Assembly (NCBI GenBank): GCA_031262295.1
Contig: JAISIA010000057.1
Location: 1-39,646 of the forward strand
Direction of reading: 5' to 3'
Length of the DNA: 39,646 nucleotides
Source: Bacteroidales bacterium
Lineage (GTDB): Bacteria; Bacteroidota; Bacteroidia; Bacteroidales; P3
Position numbers and translations under genes: made by a program. Below, in pieces: positions 1 through 32,107 of this stretch. Below the pieces are notes generated by a model. It worked only from the letters and a program-made list of their open reading frames with translations, searched no databases and was not told the DNA's origin. How positions within the stretch are numbered: position 1 is the stretch's first letter; every line of letters begins with the position of its first letter.

Positions 1-410
1 TTTCCTTTAAGGGCAAAAACGTAATATTTTCCCAAAATTTCATTTTCATTTATTTTTACAAAATAATCATTTCATTATTAATATATTACACTTGAATAAA
101 TCTTCGTTTTAGAAAATTAAAACGAGGTTTTAGAAAATTATTTCTTCGTTTTAGCAAAATAAAACAGCGTTTTATTTTGCTAAAACGAGGAAAAATTTTG
201 AAAAATTAAAAATATAGAAAAATGAATTAAAATTTGCTTGGATTATGTTGAAGGTTAATTGATTAATAATTTAAGAAAATTTTAACAAATTTTGGAGTTG
301 CAAAATTGAAATTTTGAGTGAAATGTTAAAAATTCGTCAAATTATGTGTTTTTTATGAGGATGAAATGTTAAAATTTAGGGGTTTTTAGGGTTGGAAATG
401 TTAAAATCTT
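1..410 (+). repeat. Composite intergenic repeat element, copy 1
   Basis: This stretch has no gene and aligns by eye with 12075-12505 over its whole length and with 22697-23030 over its second part. It starts with TTTCCTTTAAGGGCAAAA (1-18), matching TTTTCCTTAGGGCAAAA at 12076. About 80 bp later come 21-bp tandem units with core TCGTTTTAG (units end at 112, 133 and 154), then an AAAACAGCGTTTT mini-palindrome (161-173), an AT-rich linker, and three GAAATGTTAAAA sites at 320, 363 and 395. The layout is seen directly. Its function and whether it is mobile are unknown. The element may extend left of the window. Confidence 0.8.
146..188. repeat. 20-bp perfect inverted repeat with AGC loop
   Basis: The left arm 146-165 and the right arm 169-188 are exact reverse complements, separated by the 3-nt loop AGC (166-168). 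It lies at the end of the 21-bp tandem units of composite element copy 1 and includes its AAAAC-AGC-GTTTT core. No coding sequence covers it. It could form a strong RNA hairpin or a DNA cruciform. Confidence 0.85.
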
Positions 411-489
411 TTGAAAAAATAATATTTTAGATCTTTAATTTGTGGAGTTGATTGATAATTATTGTATTTACATAAAAAGTTATCTTTGT

Positions 490-6296: not shown

Positions 6297-6320
6297 TAAG
6301 CATAGAATATAGAAAAGACA

Positions 6321-6349
6321 AAGGTCAGCAGCAGGACGCTACTGACCTT
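6321..6349. terminator. Hairpin between nadB and the tRNA (possible bidirectional terminator)
   Basis: AAGGTCAG (6321-6328) and CTGACCTT (6342-6349) are exact complements, with a further AGC/GCT pair inside. It lies between the convergent nadB and tRNA genes. On the minus strand it is followed by a broken T-run (TGTCTTTTCT). On the plus strand there is no T-run. It most likely ends the tRNA transcript. Confidence 0.5.
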
Positions 6350-6373
6350 AAAGTCAATTCTTAAATCATCTTG

Positions 6374-6447
6374 TAGCGGAGACGAGAATTGAACTCGTGA
6401 CCTCCGGGTTATGAATCCGACGCTCTAACCAACTGAGCTACCCCGCC
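6374..6447 (-). tRNA. tRNA-Met (anticodon CAT), probably elongator
   Basis: The 74-nt cloverleaf reads on the minus strand from GGCGGGG (6447-6441) to discriminator A at 6374. The acceptor stem has 7 pairs including two G-U. The D-arm is GCTC-AGTTGGTTA-GAGC. The anticodon CAT is at 6413-6411. The T-arm is ACGAG-TTCAATT-CTCGT. CCA is not encoded. The anticodon stem has an A-C mismatch next to the loop. The G1-U72 wobble is not the C1-A72 mismatch of many initiator tRNAs. A lysidine-modified tRNA-Ile (CAT) cannot be fully excluded by eye. Confidence 0.92.
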
Positions 6448-6459
6448 AGAATGAGGTTG

Positions 6460-6489
6460 CAAAAATATAAAAAAAACACTTATCACCAA
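6460..6489 (-). promoter_or_regulatory. tRNA-Met promoter
   Basis: On the minus strand, TTG (6489-6487), 19 bp, then TATTTTTG (6467-6460), a full match to the Bacteroidetes TTG/TAnnTTTG pattern. The expected start is about 6 nt upstream of the mature tRNA 5' end. Confidence 0.65.
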
Positions 6490-6575
6490 ATAAAAAAACA
6501 CTTATAATCGCATTTTTTATTTATAGCTTGTAAAAAACTAAGAATTATTTATGGTTTCTTTAAAATATGAAAGAT

Positions 6576-6602
6576 AATTTACCCCCAAGCTGGGGGTAAA
6601 TT
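6576..6602. repeat. 12-bp perfect palindrome with AGC loop, not tied to a gene
   Basis: Arms 6576-6587 and 6591-6602 are exact complements (core ACCCCC/GGGGGT) around the loop AGC. It is one of the few GC-rich spots in the intergenic DNA. It lies about 85 bp upstream of the tRNA promoter, pointing away from any gene end. On the plus strand a T-run follows only after about 10 bases (TTTTTT near 6613). Apart from this, 6490-6786 holds nothing I recognise. Confidence 0.7.
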
Positions 6603-6786
6603 GCAAATATGCTTTTTTAATTTTTGATTAAAACATTATAATATTTTGTTAAAAATATGCGAAATTATGTTATTGTGAAATTAAAAAAGATTTATAGAAA
6701 ATGGAGATTATTTAACAATATTTTGAATCTTTATCATATAAAGGTGAAAAATTAAGATTGGAATAGGGGATTTAAATGCTATGAAA

Positions 6787-7066
6787 AAAAACAGCGTTTT
6801 AGTTTTCTAAAACGAAGAAATAATTTATTAAAACGAAGAAATAATTTACTAAAACGAAGAAATAATTTTTTAAAACAGCGTTTTATTCAGCCAAAATGCT
6901 GTTTTATTTTTATAAAATTATAGATAAAAAATGTAAAAACCAGACTTCCGTAGGAAAAATAAAAGTCGGTTGCCGACAAATGCTGTTTTATTTTTATGAA
7001 ATTATAGATAAAAAATGTAAAAATTAGACTTTTGGTTAGGAAAAAATAAATGTCGGTTGCCGACAA
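6787..7066 (-). repeat. Interspersed repeat cluster, reverse orientation
   Basis: The region starts and ends its first block with AAAACAGCGTTTT (6788 and 6872). Between them are three 21-bp units (6808-6828, 6829-6849, 6850-6870) with core AAAACGAAGAAAT, the reverse complement of the units elsewhere. A tandem duplication follows: 6894-6977 and 6978-7063 are near-identical. Each holds a reverse copy of the two-hairpin module (6941-6979 and 7025-7066) with GTCGG-TTG-CCGAC. Confidence 0.8.
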
Positions 7067-7070
7067 AGAG

Positions 7071-7099
7071 AAGGCGTTGAAAAAAGTTTTCAACGCCTT
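7071..7099 (-). terminator. Terminator hairpin of the hydrogenase operon
   Basis: AAGGCGTTGAAAA (7071-7083) and TTTTCAACGCCTT (7087-7099) form a perfect 13-bp stem with a 3-nt loop, 35 bases beyond the stop codon of the last hydrogenase gene. On the minus strand it is followed by CTCTTTG, a poor U-run, so efficiency is uncertain. Confidence 0.65.
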
Positions 7100-7133
7100 A
7101 CAAAAAAATATTAAGATTATTTTTTAGACTTAA

Positions 7134-7610
7134 TTAGTTGTATTCTTTTATGATGTCTTTTACTCCATCAGGAGTTAATCTACCATAAACCTTTTCTCCA
7201 ATTAGGACAACAGGTGCTAAACCGCAGGCACCAACACATCTTAAACAATTTAATGAAAACTTACCATCAGGTGTTGTTTCGCCAATACCTATTTTCAATT
7301 CTCTTTTAAATTCGTCCAAAACCTTTTCTGCACCACGTACATAGCAAGCAGTACCCATACAAACTGAAATTGGGTGATCTCCTTTTGGGGTCATAGTGAA
7401 GAAAGAATAGAAAGTCACAATGCCGTATATTTGTGCTACGGAAACATTTATTTGCTTTGCTATCACTTCTTGAACCTCTGCTGGAAGGTATCCAAATTCT
7501 CCTTGTACCTTATGAAGGACATTTATTGCTTCACCCGGCTTATTGCCAAAGGAAGCACAGATTTCCTTAATCTTATTTATTTTACTTTCTGATAACTTTA
7601 TCTTTGCCAT
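7134..7610 (-). CDS. hndA: NuoE-like [2Fe-2S] subunit of the [FeFe] hydrogenase (HndA/HydC)
   Basis: The 158-residue thioredoxin-like ferredoxin subunit transfers electrons within the NAD(P)-linked hydrogenase complex. The cluster ligands are visible: Cys84 and Cys89 (CMGTAC) and Cys125 and Cys129 (CVGAC). The N-terminal helical part, with AINVLHKVQGEFGYLP, and the motif QIYGIVTFYSFF are typical of NuoE/HoxE/HndA proteins. It is the last gene of the four-gene operon, starting 12 bases after the catalytic subunit. The alternative name is hydC of the trimeric electron-bifurcating enzymes; sequence alone does not decide whether the complex bifurcates. Confidence 0.92.
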   Translation of the reverse strand: MAKIKLSESKINKIKEICASFGNKPGEAINVLHKVQGEFGYLPAEVQEVIAKQINVSVAQIYGIVTFYSFFTMTPKGDHPISVCMGTACYVRGAEKVLDEFKRELKIGIGETTPDGKFSLNCLRCVGACGLAPVVLIGEKVYGRLTPDGVKDIIKEYN

Positions 7611-11757: not shown

Positions 11758-12034
11758 ATCTTTATACATTTATTTTCAATTTATAGCCTCAAATGCTAAT
11801 AATAGCAACAATAATTAAAGATATATTATAAAAATATATAATCAAAATCTACCTTATTTTTGAAAAATATAACCCCAATTTTTTATTTTTTTTCGCTTAT
11901 ATATAAAGATGCAAAACCAAATTTATTATATAAAAATTTTTTTTTTCTTTACCCTGTTTTTATTGTTTAAAAAAATATTTAACATTTTTTTTGATCAAAT
12001 GTCAAAATTTAAATTCCAAAATCAATTTTGCCAT

Positions 12035-12065
12035 TTGCATGTTTGAAATATTTTTTGTACCTTTG
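12035..12065 (+). promoter_or_regulatory. Strong promoter without a gene behind it
   Basis: TTG (12035-12037), 20 bp, then TACCTTTG (12058-12065), an excellent match. The next coding sequence on this strand starts almost 600 bases later and has its own promoter at 12606-12634. The first transcribed bases would enter composite repeat copy 2 at CCTTAGGGCAAAAGCC. The flanking DNA 11760-12034 shows nothing else beyond AT-rich sequence. Confidence 0.6.
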
Positions 12066-12074
12066 CCAAAACAA

Positions 12075-12505
12075 AGTTTTCCTTAGGGCAAAAGCCAAAA
12101 AAATCCACCCAATACTTATTTCATTTTTGTTAGTTATATAATCACTTTACTATTAGTTTGTTATAGTCAAATAAAACCTCGTTTTAGAAAAATAAAACCT
12201 CGTTTTAGCAAATTATTTCTTCGTTTTAGCAGACTAAAACAGCGATTTATTTCTAAGAAATCTTAATATTTTTTTCTTAATTTAGAATTTGGATTTTTAT
12301 AGTAAAAACATAGAAAAATCATATTAAAATTTCATTAAATCATATTGAGAATTAAGAATTTGAAAACCTAAAAAAGCATTTAGTATATTTTTGTTTAAAA
12401 ATTAGGGAATATTTTTAATAAAGGGTTGAAAAATGTTAAAATATTGGCTTTTTTTGGTAAAATGATGTTAAAATTTGGTCAAAAAACACATCAACTATGT
12501 TAAAA
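12075..12505 (+). repeat. Composite intergenic repeat element, copy 2
   Basis: It matches 1-410 in order: TTTTCCTTAGGGCAAAA at 12076, a related AT-rich stretch (ATAATCACTTTACTATTAG near 12138), 21-bp units ending in TCGTTTTAG (12188-12208 and 12209-12229), AAAACAGCGATTTA (12237), a related linker, then ATGTTAAAA sites at 12433, 12465 and 12497, spaced exactly 32 bp apart. No reading frame of note runs through it. Confidence 0.78.
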
Positions 12506-12605
12506 AAAATGTGAATTTATACTATTGGCTTATGTTTTTTAACCAATCATTAGGTATAATAAGGGAAAAAAAGGATTAAAAAAAACTTTTTATCCTTGTA
12601 GTTTT

Positions 12606-22547: not shown

Positions 22548-23030
22548 GTCGGGGCGGCAACCGCCCTTTGTGTTGTCCTTGCGGAAGTCGGGATTTTATA
22601 ATTACATAATTTAATTCAATATAAAAAAGTTGGCAACACTTGTTTTGTCCTAACGGAAGTAAAAAAATACATTTATATATTCATAATTTGACATAAATAA
22701 AACCGCGTTTTAGGAAAATAAATCTTCGTTTTAGTAAATTATTTCTTCGTTTTAGTAAATTATTTCTTCGTTTTAGCAGAATAAAACAGCGTTTTATTTG
22801 AATTTTTCTTCGTTTTTTTCTGGAAAAATAAGGTTTTGAGTTTTTTAATTAAAAATCGGGGAAAATATATTAAAATTTGTTTGGATTATATTGATAATTA
22901 ATAATTTGAAAATATTAAATTCCGTTAGGAAAAACAAAGGTCGGTTGCCGACAAAAATTGAGTGAAATGTTAAAAATTCATCAAATTTTGTGTTTTTTTG
23001 ATGAAAGAAATGTTAAAATTTGGGGAATTT
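22548..23030. repeat. Interspersed repeat region with composite element copy 3
   Basis: In order: a two-hairpin module with the stem GGGCGG-CAA-CCGCCC (22552-22566) and TCCTTGCGGA, a second decayed copy (22629-22660), then 21-bp units (22735-22755 and 22756-22776 identical), AAAACAGCGTTTTATT (22783), and a linker matching copy 1 (TTAAAATTTGTTTGGATTATATTGA near 22870, split as in copy 1). A reverse two-hairpin module lies at 22919-22954, and GAAATGTTAAAA sites at 22964 and 23007 are 43 bp apart, as at 320 and 363. 23031-23115 holds nothing further. Confidence 0.78.
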
Positions 23031-23115
23031 GCGAAAAATATTGTTAATTTTTTTGCAAATTTTAAGTTATTTGGAATTTTAGTAGTGGAATTTATTGCTC
23101 TGCTTTAAGAATCCT

Positions 23116-29067: not shown

Positions 29068-31716
29068 CTATCTATAAATAAAAACTTCTCCTGATTGAGT
29101 GACAACATCGTTTTTCTTATCGGCATAACGATAGGTTGCCTTCCAAACGTAGGCACCTGTTTGTACGTATTCTCCTTTGTATTTACAATCCCATACATTT
29201 TCTTGATTGGTTGTTGAAAATACAACTTCACCCCAACGATTATATATCTTTAAAAGGAAGTCAATAGGGTTATCAACATAGACTCTAAAAGTAGAAACAC
29301 TTGGATTATTATCATAAATATAAACCCCTGTTGGTGCCCAACAATAATGGGTATTATGTATTCTTATAATATTATCTGTAGAATCTGTACATCCCTTATC
29401 CGTTTCAACCATTAGCTTTACTATATATTGACGTATTGTATCACTAAGAGTAAAGGTATGTACAAAATAGCTTTCGTTAGACTGAGCACCATCGGATATT
29501 GTCCATAAACGATTAAAGCTATTTTCAGTTTTATCTTCAAATATCACCAAAGGATCTAAATCATCAATAATTTTTGGATTAAAGTCCATCTGAACCTCAG
29601 GCAAAGGATTAACATAAACAATGGTGGTATCGGAATTTATACATCCTATTGAATCTTCTGCAAAGGCAATATACATTGTAGAAATCTTAGGATGTACTTT
29701 TAAAGATTCCTCTGTGGAGTTTTCTATTGCCTCATCCATAGGAATAGAATGCCAATAGTATTTATCTACATTACCATTAAGAGCAATTGTTGTAGAGTCT
29801 CCATAACATATAGAAATATCATTATTAACATTAATTATTGGCTTATCCGATGCTCTTACAATAACGCTTGCCTTTGTTTCACATCTGGTAGGACCATAAG
29901 TAACGCTTACTTCATATTGTGTTTCTGATTGCTCAGGCTTAACACTTATTGAAGGGCTTTTTTGACCATTATCCCATTCAAAGGTGCAATTATCTTTTGA
30001 AGAGTTTGCAGTAAGAAGAGTTGTTGTTCCCAAACAAATATTAGTATCTCCATTAATTGATACTTGTGGAGCTTCATTTACTTGAATATATACAACATCT
30101 TCTGCAAAACAATTCAATGCATCTGTAAGTTTATATTTTAAATTTCCTGAAATAGGAGGAACGTATGATAGGGTAGTAGCACTTTGATTAGGTATTACAT
30201 CATTATTAAAAAACCAAGAAGAAGTACCAGTAGGAGAAGTCTCATCTAAGTTAAGAAATGACATCTCATCGCCATTACAACAAGAAGTATCTTCAAAAAG
30301 TCTAACACTAAATTCTCTTGGATGAACAATAACTGTATCTCTTCTTGTACAAACCCATTGACCCATTTCATTCTGATTGTCTGCTTCAAATATGTAGTAT
30401 ATATCTTGTGTTGGCGTATCAACATAATTATTGGGGTTTGCAATAGTTGTAAAATTTTCTAAAACAGGTCCTGTCATACCAGCTTGTTTTTTTACCTTAT
30501 ATTGGTGTGCTCCGTTTAAACTAAAAGCTATATTATTGCCTAAACAAACAGTATCATACCTACCAGTATCTCCATTATGTGTTATATAAAAAGGAGGAAG
30601 ATCAATAGGTTTTACAAGTATAGAATCGCTATAATAAAGCACATCTACATTTCCATTTAAATCTGGCAACCTATCAATAGTTGTTTCCATAATATACCAC
30701 ATTGGTCCTTCTTCCTGTGTAGGTTGTACTCTTACCCATTCATCACTACCAGAAGTTACATTGGGACCTTCTGTAGGAAGATTAAGACCAACTCTATTAT
30801 AATCTTCGCTTGTAGCACTTCTTCTATACCATTGTGTAGATTGGCTTAAATTTCCTTGAGGTCTTATTCTCCAAGCCTCATTTTGTGCTGTCCAATCAGA
30901 GGTTCCATTATAACTTACACCTTCGCTATTGGTAATAGCAAGCCCTTGTGTTCCATCTGCATTTTGAATACCAAGCGTTGCCCATCCAGAATTCCATGAA
31001 GGGCAAGAAGGTTTATTTAGCATATAAAATTCTATAGTATTTGTTGTCTCATATAAAACTATCATCTGAGTTGCAAGCAAATTAGTACAAATATACATTG
31101 GAACTTGATAATAACTTAATATAAGTCTTCTACAAGGATAATCTCCTACTATAATGTAAGACATACTACCTCCTTGTCCAAAATGTATGTCATGATATGG
31201 ACTAAAAATGCAATTTAAAAATTCAGTAGAAGCTGTACTGGGAAGAACCATGTGAGTACTCCAACTACAACCTTGTCCTGCTTTGGCTAAATTAAAAGAA
31301 AGATTGCCGTTAGTACTCATAATACAACTATTATATGTATTTCCATAAAAAGAAAAAACAAAAGGTGGTGCACCTGTTGGTAAACCATAACTTAAACTAA
31401 ATACGTTTCCCCAAACATCATCTGATGCTGAAATATCAACATCTATTCTATTATCATATTCACTAAGATTAAAAGAACAAGGAGGATTAAATGGTATTGA
31501 TTCATAAATGTAGTTTGTGGAGGCACCTGGTGCATAAGTAAAAGCTTTTAATTGTATGTAGTCTTGACTGCAAGATAATTGTACTGTATCTCCTGAATTA
31601 TTTTCTGTTGTATCGCTTGCCCAACTATGATGAATATAAGCACTAATACAGGATTGTTGTCCTAAAACATTTATAGTGATACCAAAAAATAAAATAAAAT
31701 AAAATAATTTTCTCAT
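29068..31716 (-). CDS. Secreted multidomain protein with type IX secretion C-terminal domain
   Basis: The 882-residue protein begins with a signal peptide (about 1-20, ending LGQ). A long beta-rich N-terminal part contains a segment FSFYGNTYNSCIMSTNGNLSFN like those in surface or adhesin-type proteins. Several Ig/PKD-like repeats follow in the second half (for example CNGDEMSFLNLDETSPTGTSSW, the block near DKTENSFNRLWTISDGAQS). The last about 90 residues (CWAPTGVYIYDNNPSVSTF to the end, with KIYNRWGEVVF and TGAYVWKATY) match the gliding-motility-associated (type B) C-terminal domain, which directs export by the T9SS to the cell surface. No enzymatic motif is seen; adhesion is plausible. Transcribed alone from its own promoter. 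Confidence 0.88.
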   Translation of the reverse strand: MRKLFYFILFFGITINVLGQQSCISAYIHHSWASDTTENNSGDTVQLSCSQDYIQLKAFTYAPGASTNYIYESIPFNPPCSFNLSEYDNRIDVDISASDDVWGNVFSLSYGLPTGAPPFVFSFYGNTYNSCIMSTNGNLSFNLAKAGQGCSWSTHMVLPSTASTEFLNCIFSPYHDIHFGQGGSMSYIIVGDYPCRRLILSYYQVPMYICTNLLATQMIVLYETTNTIEFYMLNKPSCPSWNSGWATLGIQNADGTQGLAITNSEGVSYNGTSDWTAQNEAWRIRPQGNLSQSTQWYRRSATSEDYNRVGLNLPTEGPNVTSGSDEWVRVQPTQEEGPMWYIMETTIDRLPDLNGNVDVLYYSDSILVKPIDLPPFYITHNGDTGRYDTVCLGNNIAFSLNGAHQYKVKKQAGMTGPVLENFTTIANPNNYVDTPTQDIYYIFEADNQNEMGQWVCTRRDTVIVHPREFSVRLFEDTSCCNGDEMSFLNLDETSPTGTSSWFFNNDVIPNQSATTLSYVPPISGNLKYKLTDALNCFAEDVVYIQVNEAPQVSINGDTNICLGTTTLLTANSSKDNCTFEWDNGQKSPSISVKPEQSETQYEVSVTYGPTRCETKASVIVRASDKPIINVNNDISICYGDSTTIALNGNVDKYYWHSIPMDEAIENSTEESLKVHPKISTMYIAFAEDSIGCINSDTTIVYVNPLPEVQMDFNPKIIDDLDPLVIFEDKTENSFNRLWTISDGAQSNESYFVHTFTLSDTIRQYIVKLMVETDKGCTDSTDNIIRIHNTHYCWAPTGVYIYDNNPSVSTFRVYVDNPIDFLLKIYNRWGEVVFSTTNQENVWDCKYKGEYVQTGAYVWKATYRYADKKNDVVTQSGEVFIYR

Positions 31717-31779: not shown

Positions 31780-31949
31780 AGAGACGAAAATATTTGCTTT
31801 TTTTTTGAAAGTTTTCTAAAAACACAGCCTTATATCTTATAAATTAAAACCAAATAAACCAAATAAAAACTCAATGCAAAATCATCTTATAATAACATCT
31901 TTACATGTTGCAAAACTAAAATGCTGTTTTGTTGTTAGTAGACTTTTTA

Positions 31950-32107
31950 TTTGTCGTTAGCCGTCCTTTATTTTTCCTGCGGAACTTAGGGTAGCCTTCT
32001 TATCTATTTATAATTCAGGTCGCCTAAAACGAAGATTTAGTAAATTATTTCTTCGTTTTAGTAAATTATTTCTTCGTTTTAGAAAACTAAAACAGCGTTT
32101 TATTTTT
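31950..32107 (+). repeat. Interspersed repeat cluster
   Basis: 31950-31992 is a decayed two-hairpin module (TTTGTCGTTAGCCG, then TCCTGCGGAA). 32041-32061 and 32062-32082 are two identical 21-bp units with core TTCTTCGTTTTAG. AAAACAGCGTTTTATTTT starts at 32090. A reversed fragment CTAAAACGAAGATTTAG precedes the units (32024-32040). It sits between the divergent promoters of the secreted protein and the four-gene cassette. No linker or ATGTTAAAA sites like those of copies 1-3 follow. Confidence 0.78.

Follow-up and report, generated by a model that had tools for sequence, protein, structure and literature searches.

Arrays of 21-bp units lie at regular intervals between the genes of an uncultured, gut-type Bacteroidales bacterium, and their register is under constraint against indels while the copies themselves drift. 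The window, that is, the whole stretch of DNA that was analysed (39,646 nucleotides; positions 1-39646 of contig C18), belongs to a 2.04-Mb genome in 89 contigs (G000, hereafter the own genome), the assembly of which is 99% complete. Its AtpA is nearest to those of rumen Bacteroidales assemblies (81%), and its exact tandem pattern had no match among the genome contigs searched. A sequence-only reading had noted five tandem arrays in the window. These are real, with all 23 units on exact 21-bp grids (Table 1), and the phenomenon is larger than was noted. The even spacing of the arrays and the turnover of their sequences between species are points absent from that reading. No prior description of such arrays was found in the open PubMed Central literature, which is no proof of novelty.

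As the sequence-only reading held in placing them between operons, all five arrays lie in gaps between genes. Two of the gaps are convergent, including that of array 2 (6297-7133), two are divergent, and array 1, at the contig start, lies upstream of the atp genes. The core TTCTTCGTTTTAG, taken at up to two mismatches, has 16 matches in the window against 2.4 expected, a count reached by none of 100 shuffles. A TTCTTCG core is missing from some units, and three kinds of unit alternate. Likewise, the end sequence claimed to be common to all arrays does not extend to array 3, whose last unit ends in AAAACAGCGATTT. A lone degenerate unit at 559-600, composed of ATCTTTGTTTTAG and then TAAAACAACGATTTG, is perhaps an array remnant. 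The window also contains a tRNA gene (6374-6447, minus strand) in the convergent gap of array 2, and, at 29068-31716 on the minus strand, a large surface protein that combines PKD/Ig-like domains with a type IX secretion signal of the CHU_C kind.

Table 1. Arrays, copies of the dispersed repeat element A and associated features in the window (unit kinds as in the text).
Feature	Position	Strand	Description
Array 1	97-195	+	Five lattice positions, centres 104, 125, 146, 167, 188
Array 2	6787-6885	-	Five units (centres 6794 to 6878), three of type a
Array 3	12172-12249	+	Four units, centres 12179 to 12242; within full element A copy; divergent gap
Array 4	22698-22796	+	Five units, centres 22705 to 22789; joined to partial element A; convergent gap
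Array 5	32025-32102	+	Four units, centres 32032 to 32095; first unit inverted yet in register; divergent gap
Element A copy	1-480	+	Cut by contig start; carries array 1
Element A copy	11979-12539	+	Full-length, judging by similarity; contains array 3
Partial element A, right two thirds	22728-23097	+	Carries array 4
Promoter-like site in element A, Bacteroidota type	12034-12067	+	TTTG-N20-TAnnTTTG; putative promoter
Companion module	6894-7067	-	84-bp tandem copies; adjoins array 2

Each unit is composed of a 6-bp half-site, a 3-bp centre, a second 6-bp half-site and a 6-bp linker, following TA(WWW)C-NNN-GTTTTA-G-N-AAAW, and three kinds account for nearly all of 338 units. Kind a (TATTTC-TTC-GTTTTA, n=127) always has TTC at its centre, kind b is TAAATC-TTC-GTTTTA (n=59), and kind S, the dyad, is TAAAAC-NNN-GTTTTA (n=110) with a centre that is mostly AGC or GCT. 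Their order follows a grammar, with b or S first, a inside and S(AGC) last. Array 1 of the window reads b, dyad GAG, a, dyad AGC and a partial GAG unit, and its last part is able to fold into a long hairpin. Slippage homogenisation would account for uniform arrays; here the units differ in kind and their order is fixed, which argues against simple slippage. Perfect dyads make up about one third of the units, the other two thirds being unable to form a hairpin of their own, and occur less often than half-sites paired at random would give, subject to an ascertainment caveat. Unit-level hairpins were accordingly rejected, most units being asymmetric.

Unit-pair geometry was measured over 748 kb of the own genome, where 474 of 480 close pairs fall on a 21/42/63-bp grid. 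Same-strand pairs number 209, 136 and 70 at these distances (415 in total) against 3 elsewhere, and inverted pairs 33, 21 and 5 (59 in total), again against 3 elsewhere. Because reversed units keep the register, the grid belongs to the unit centres and not to head-to-tail copying. When no sequence is assumed, 21 remains the most frequent period of tandem repeats in the non-coding part of the own genome (99, versus 5 each for 20 and 22). The sequence-only reading had allowed that the helical phasing could be chance if the period varied among copies or if units occurred freely inside genes. In the own genome the period is constant, and 109 of 111 cores lie outside called genes in the 381-kb part of the sample used for this count (hexamer-based gene calls made within the analysis); the two exceptions are isolated near-matches, neither of them within an array. 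The genome-wide count that it had proposed returned 448 matches to a 20-mer at up to two mismatches, where the reversed control gave 1.

Many of the arrays are carried by element A, a dispersed repeat of ~550 bp with a sharp left end and at least 40 copies, confined to this species; other arrays occur without it. Array length is 15+21n bp in 39 of 39 element A copies. Gaps other than 21n amount to 0.004 per substitution in the arrays, compared with 0.23-0.27 in the flanks of the same copies, and are thus ~60 times rarer: about one indel per four substitutions in flanks, and one per ~250 in arrays, whole 21-bp steps excluded. Divergence is 0.076 in the arrays and 0.17 in the flanks.

The spacing of the arrays is even, strongly so in the own genome and suggestively in relatives. 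The distances between neighbouring arrays of the own genome (n=58) have a mean of 8.1 kb and a CV of 0.31, and span 4.0-13.0 kb, with only one below 3 kb (a 0.5-kb pair) and none above 13 kb; as the sampled stretches are ~20 kb long, distances above ~15 kb are under-sampled, a limit that holds equally for the null placement. Random intergenic placement of the same numbers in the same stretches gives a CV of 0.72-0.83 and puts 28-35% of distances below 3 kb. Two separate halves of the data yield CVs of 0.30 and 0.26, the spacing is more regular when counted in bp than in genes, and no such evenness is seen for the other repeat modules of this DNA (CV 0.65-0.82). Where neighbours are classed by lying in element A (A) or outside it (B), the AA, AB, BA and BB means all fall at 7.8-8.6 kb, and the spacing therefore belongs to the arrays, not to their carrier. 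The exact sites of the whole-genome search, a list independent of the choice of stretches, give 1 of 53 distances below 3 kb among the listed contigs C3-C46, against 13.7 expected; the exception is an array pair on C20, 766 bp apart. In relatives the pooled spacing CV is 0.57, with a P of 0.02-0.13 according to the null used. G068 has distances of 7-10 kb and G010 of 4-9 kb, and on a 407-kb contig of G034 the CV of 0.74 is not significant (P about 0.1).

Element A also explains the likeness that the sequence-only reading had seen over about 400 bp between 1-410 and 12075-12505. In an alignment of 410 columns, positions 1-377 and 12078-12476 are 67.6% identical, and the score of 136 compares with 59 at most in shuffles. 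Both regions are copies of the element, the first of them truncated by the end of the contig. Contigs C5, C7, C11, C12, C14, C16, C18, C22, C37 and C38 all end inside element A; its repeats thus break the assembly, and the true copy number is probably higher. A promoter-like block, TTTG-N20-TATCTTTG, is conserved among the copies, and the array lies downstream of it. The element is oriented at random to neighbouring genes, including the gene downstream, and a function as their promoter was rejected on this basis. A motif, AAATGTTAAA, recurs at both ends of the element (seen at the ends and in the right part of the copies, and in the window at 339-407 and 12430-12510), its first pair forming the inverted repeat TTTAACATTT-N8-AAATGTTAAA, and is possibly a binding site for a mobilising protein.

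The companion module beside array 2 is composed of CAGCATTT, an AT-rich stretch, a TTCCGTTAGGA hairpin and a GTCGG-TTG-CCGAC hairpin. A second dispersed hairpin family has a constant TTG/CAA triloop within stems that vary but remain complementary, followed by TTTATTTTTCCTAACGGAAGTCTGG; examples are GTCGG-CAA-CCGAC, GGCGG-CAA-CCGCC and CTGC-TTG-GCAG. These hairpins occur in many intergenic gaps, and in the window at 6894-7067, 480-600, 22550-22660, 22930-22955 and 31930-31990. Their GAC/GTC parts could pair in two mutually exclusive ways, and the family is a possible structured RNA. The arrays match no Rfam family, a search that yielded just a tRNA and one chance hit below the threshold.

Of 149 genomes of the family, 26, from five genera, show the pair-of-units pattern. 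Tandem periods in non-coding DNA of the sampled relatives, for which some of the stretches were picked for holding matches, are 21 (91), 22 (19) and 20 (1), whereas a 21-bp period was counted once in family members without arrays and 15 times in 80 other Bacteroidota loci. Those of the 15 that were inspected look mostly like the atpE coding repeat or like heptamer repeats, and the signal outside the family is not comparable. The arrays of G035 are TAATC-based (46 of 46 pairs on grid for TAATCTGCG), those of G068 have three half-site kinds, and those of G107 have a 22-bp period. Lattices of 22 bp, at times 23 bp, with the palindromes AAAAAACATATGTTTTTT and TTCGGACCGTCCGAA, are seen in L211-L214 (G107), L226 (G011) and L202 (G003), and the arrays of G068 (L191:9880-10300 and L191:17300-17620) are arranged as inverted repeats, imperfect but very long (MFE -106, z -10.5). 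The gap beside a NuoE-like gene (window 7134-7610) holds different 21/22-bp arrays in the own genome, G005 and G001, and no array in G007, G010, G002 and G003. Gene order was rearranged at the two loci compared for empty sites. Copy number varies widely between sister species, amplification being patchy, and G002, G012, G020 and G016, of the same family and genus, have no 21-bp signal. Arrays of this 21-bp geometry, 22-bp in some, are present in several genera of the family, with sequences replaced between species.

The strict two-turn phasing, the protection of the register, the position between genes and the regular spacing are together what would be expected of cooperative binding platforms for a chromosome-organising protein. 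The arrays may be helically phased platforms for a putative host DNA-binding protein, one per ~8-kb domain, serving as topological insulators in the manner of BIME-2, a tentative reading to which we give somewhat less than an even chance. A sequence-specific host protein would bind successive 21-bp units of each array; with one site per two helix turns, the bound subunits would share one face of the DNA, so that cooperative binding would be possible. One such complex roughly every 8 kb between genes would partition the chromosome topologically or structurally, as is proposed for BIME-2/gyrase sites in E. coli, and many of the platforms in this species would ride on the dispersed element A. That phased arrays act as a chromosome ruler, defining domains about every 8 kb, with letters replaced and geometry kept as recogniser and marks co-evolve, is possible but on the doubtful side. 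What we infer in this account is that a protein binds, and does so cooperatively, that it helps to organise the chromosome, and that it co-evolves with its sites. A single conserved protein is hard to reconcile with the sequence turnover, and given the species that lack the signal, the role is not universal. The 22-bp lattice of some relatives, slightly off two turns, the two close pairs noted above and the weak evenness in relatives also count against this account. Of the interpretations in the sequence-only reading, an array of protein-binding sites fits the strict register (inverted units included), the indel protection, the intergenic location and the even spacing, with binding itself putative. 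A non-autonomous mobile element fits element A, which is dispersed and carries many arrays; on the other hand, some arrays exist outside it, and the search for a transposase of the tested families came up empty.

The main rival is a mobile element showing immunity. The arrays would be transposase-binding sites of such an element and its relics, with the 21-bp grid a requirement of the transposase, like the repeated end sites of Tn7-like or Mu-like elements, and with target immunity and near-saturation generating the even spacing. Element A, dispersed and species-specific, carries imperfect 33-bp inverted repeats close to either end (in single copies 88-100%, with E of 1e-4 to 1e-6), and both the patchy amplification among species and the minimum array distance near 4 kb are in keeping with this. 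Yet these repeats are not significant in the element A consensus, the listed flanks of its copies have no clear target-site duplications, bare arrays are spaced like those in element A, and hard exclusion alone (a shifted exponential) is rejected by its poor fit (KS P=4e-4, with long distances under-sampled). Furthermore, the own genome has no matches to Y1 (PF01797; 0, with positive controls found), DDE_Tnp_1 (PF01609), rve (PF00665) or RVT_1, although IS elements present in many copies can be missing from assemblies of this type. We consider this explanation unlikely.

It is similarly improbable that the arrays are neutral or selfish palindromic mosaic repeats, growing and shrinking in 21-bp steps, spread by recombination and persisting between genes where they are harmless. 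Length differences of 21n are common (347 pairwise cases), and the uneven copy number among sister species and the intergenic location would be expected of such repeats, but the near absence of non-21n indels where substitutions pile up, the non-random unit order and a spacing far more even than random intergenic placement would not. An RNA-level element at gene 3' ends, such as a terminator, mRNA stabiliser or Rho-linked site, is very unlikely. Outside element A, arrays are mostly 3' of genes near the stop codon, co-oriented with the upstream gene 19:2, with only 1 of 36 in divergent gaps, and half fold better than shuffles (median z -2.5). In relatives, however, there is no such bias (15:14) and divergent gaps are not avoided, so that gene-3' placement is no rule of the arrays. 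Arrays inside element A face either direction, perfect dyads are scarce and most units lack a hairpin of their own, as noted above, and an RNA function gives no reason for a register common to inverted units. Orientation by replication strand was also rejected (11:11 outside and 18:10 inside element A in the own genome), and a minus bias on G034:C16 (18:4 gaps) was unconfirmed elsewhere.

BIME-2 elements of E. coli bind gyrase and have a proposed role in chromosome organisation (PMC2817692), and bacterial chromosomes contain diffusible supercoil domains of ~10 kb, to which the ~8-kb spacing is close (PMC3420936). BIME-2 would be the nearest functional analogy. Like BIME-2 and REP elements, the arrays are high-copy, extragenic clusters of palindromic units that face either way, alternate in kind and are capped, though only about one third are perfect dyads. 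Unlike the 20-40 bp palindromes with variable spacers of BIME-2, the units here keep a strict 21-bp lattice, and no even spacing is reported for BIMEs in the literature found. REP elements are defined by a GTAG or CGTC terminal tag (PMC3733652). The unit consensus TAWWWCNNNGTTTTAGNAAAW has no such tag next to the palindrome and the own genome has no Y1/RAYT gene; the arrays are thus not REP/BIME by definition. BOX elements of Streptococcus pneumoniae are intergenic, and their ends stay constant while the internal tandem modules vary in number. Element A shares this architecture, and its dispersed copies with common ends are MITE/BOX-like, but its sequence and module sizes differ and its inner module also lives outside the element. 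In plasmid iterons and ArgR-type paired operators, sites 21-22 bp apart, two helix turns, support cooperative binding on one face. The arrays resemble these in site spacing, but exist as hundreds of copies dispersed along a chromosome, and their binding protein is putative. Tandem, partly palindromic short repeats also recall CRISPR; here the 21-bp unit DNA is continuous, the period being the unit itself, and no array has unique spacers, in agreement with the sequence-only reading, which had set CRISPR aside.

With an evenly spaced, sequence-defined set of arrays, the question whether fixed DNA marks set the borders of supercoil domains would become directly testable. The arrays also provide an exact DNA bait for a putative chromosome protein, and the sister species a natural comparison in which one geometry is written in different letters. 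Together, evenly spaced arrays in this bacterium and the same geometry in its relatives suggest that a putative protein marks the chromosome, or anchors it, in even steps.
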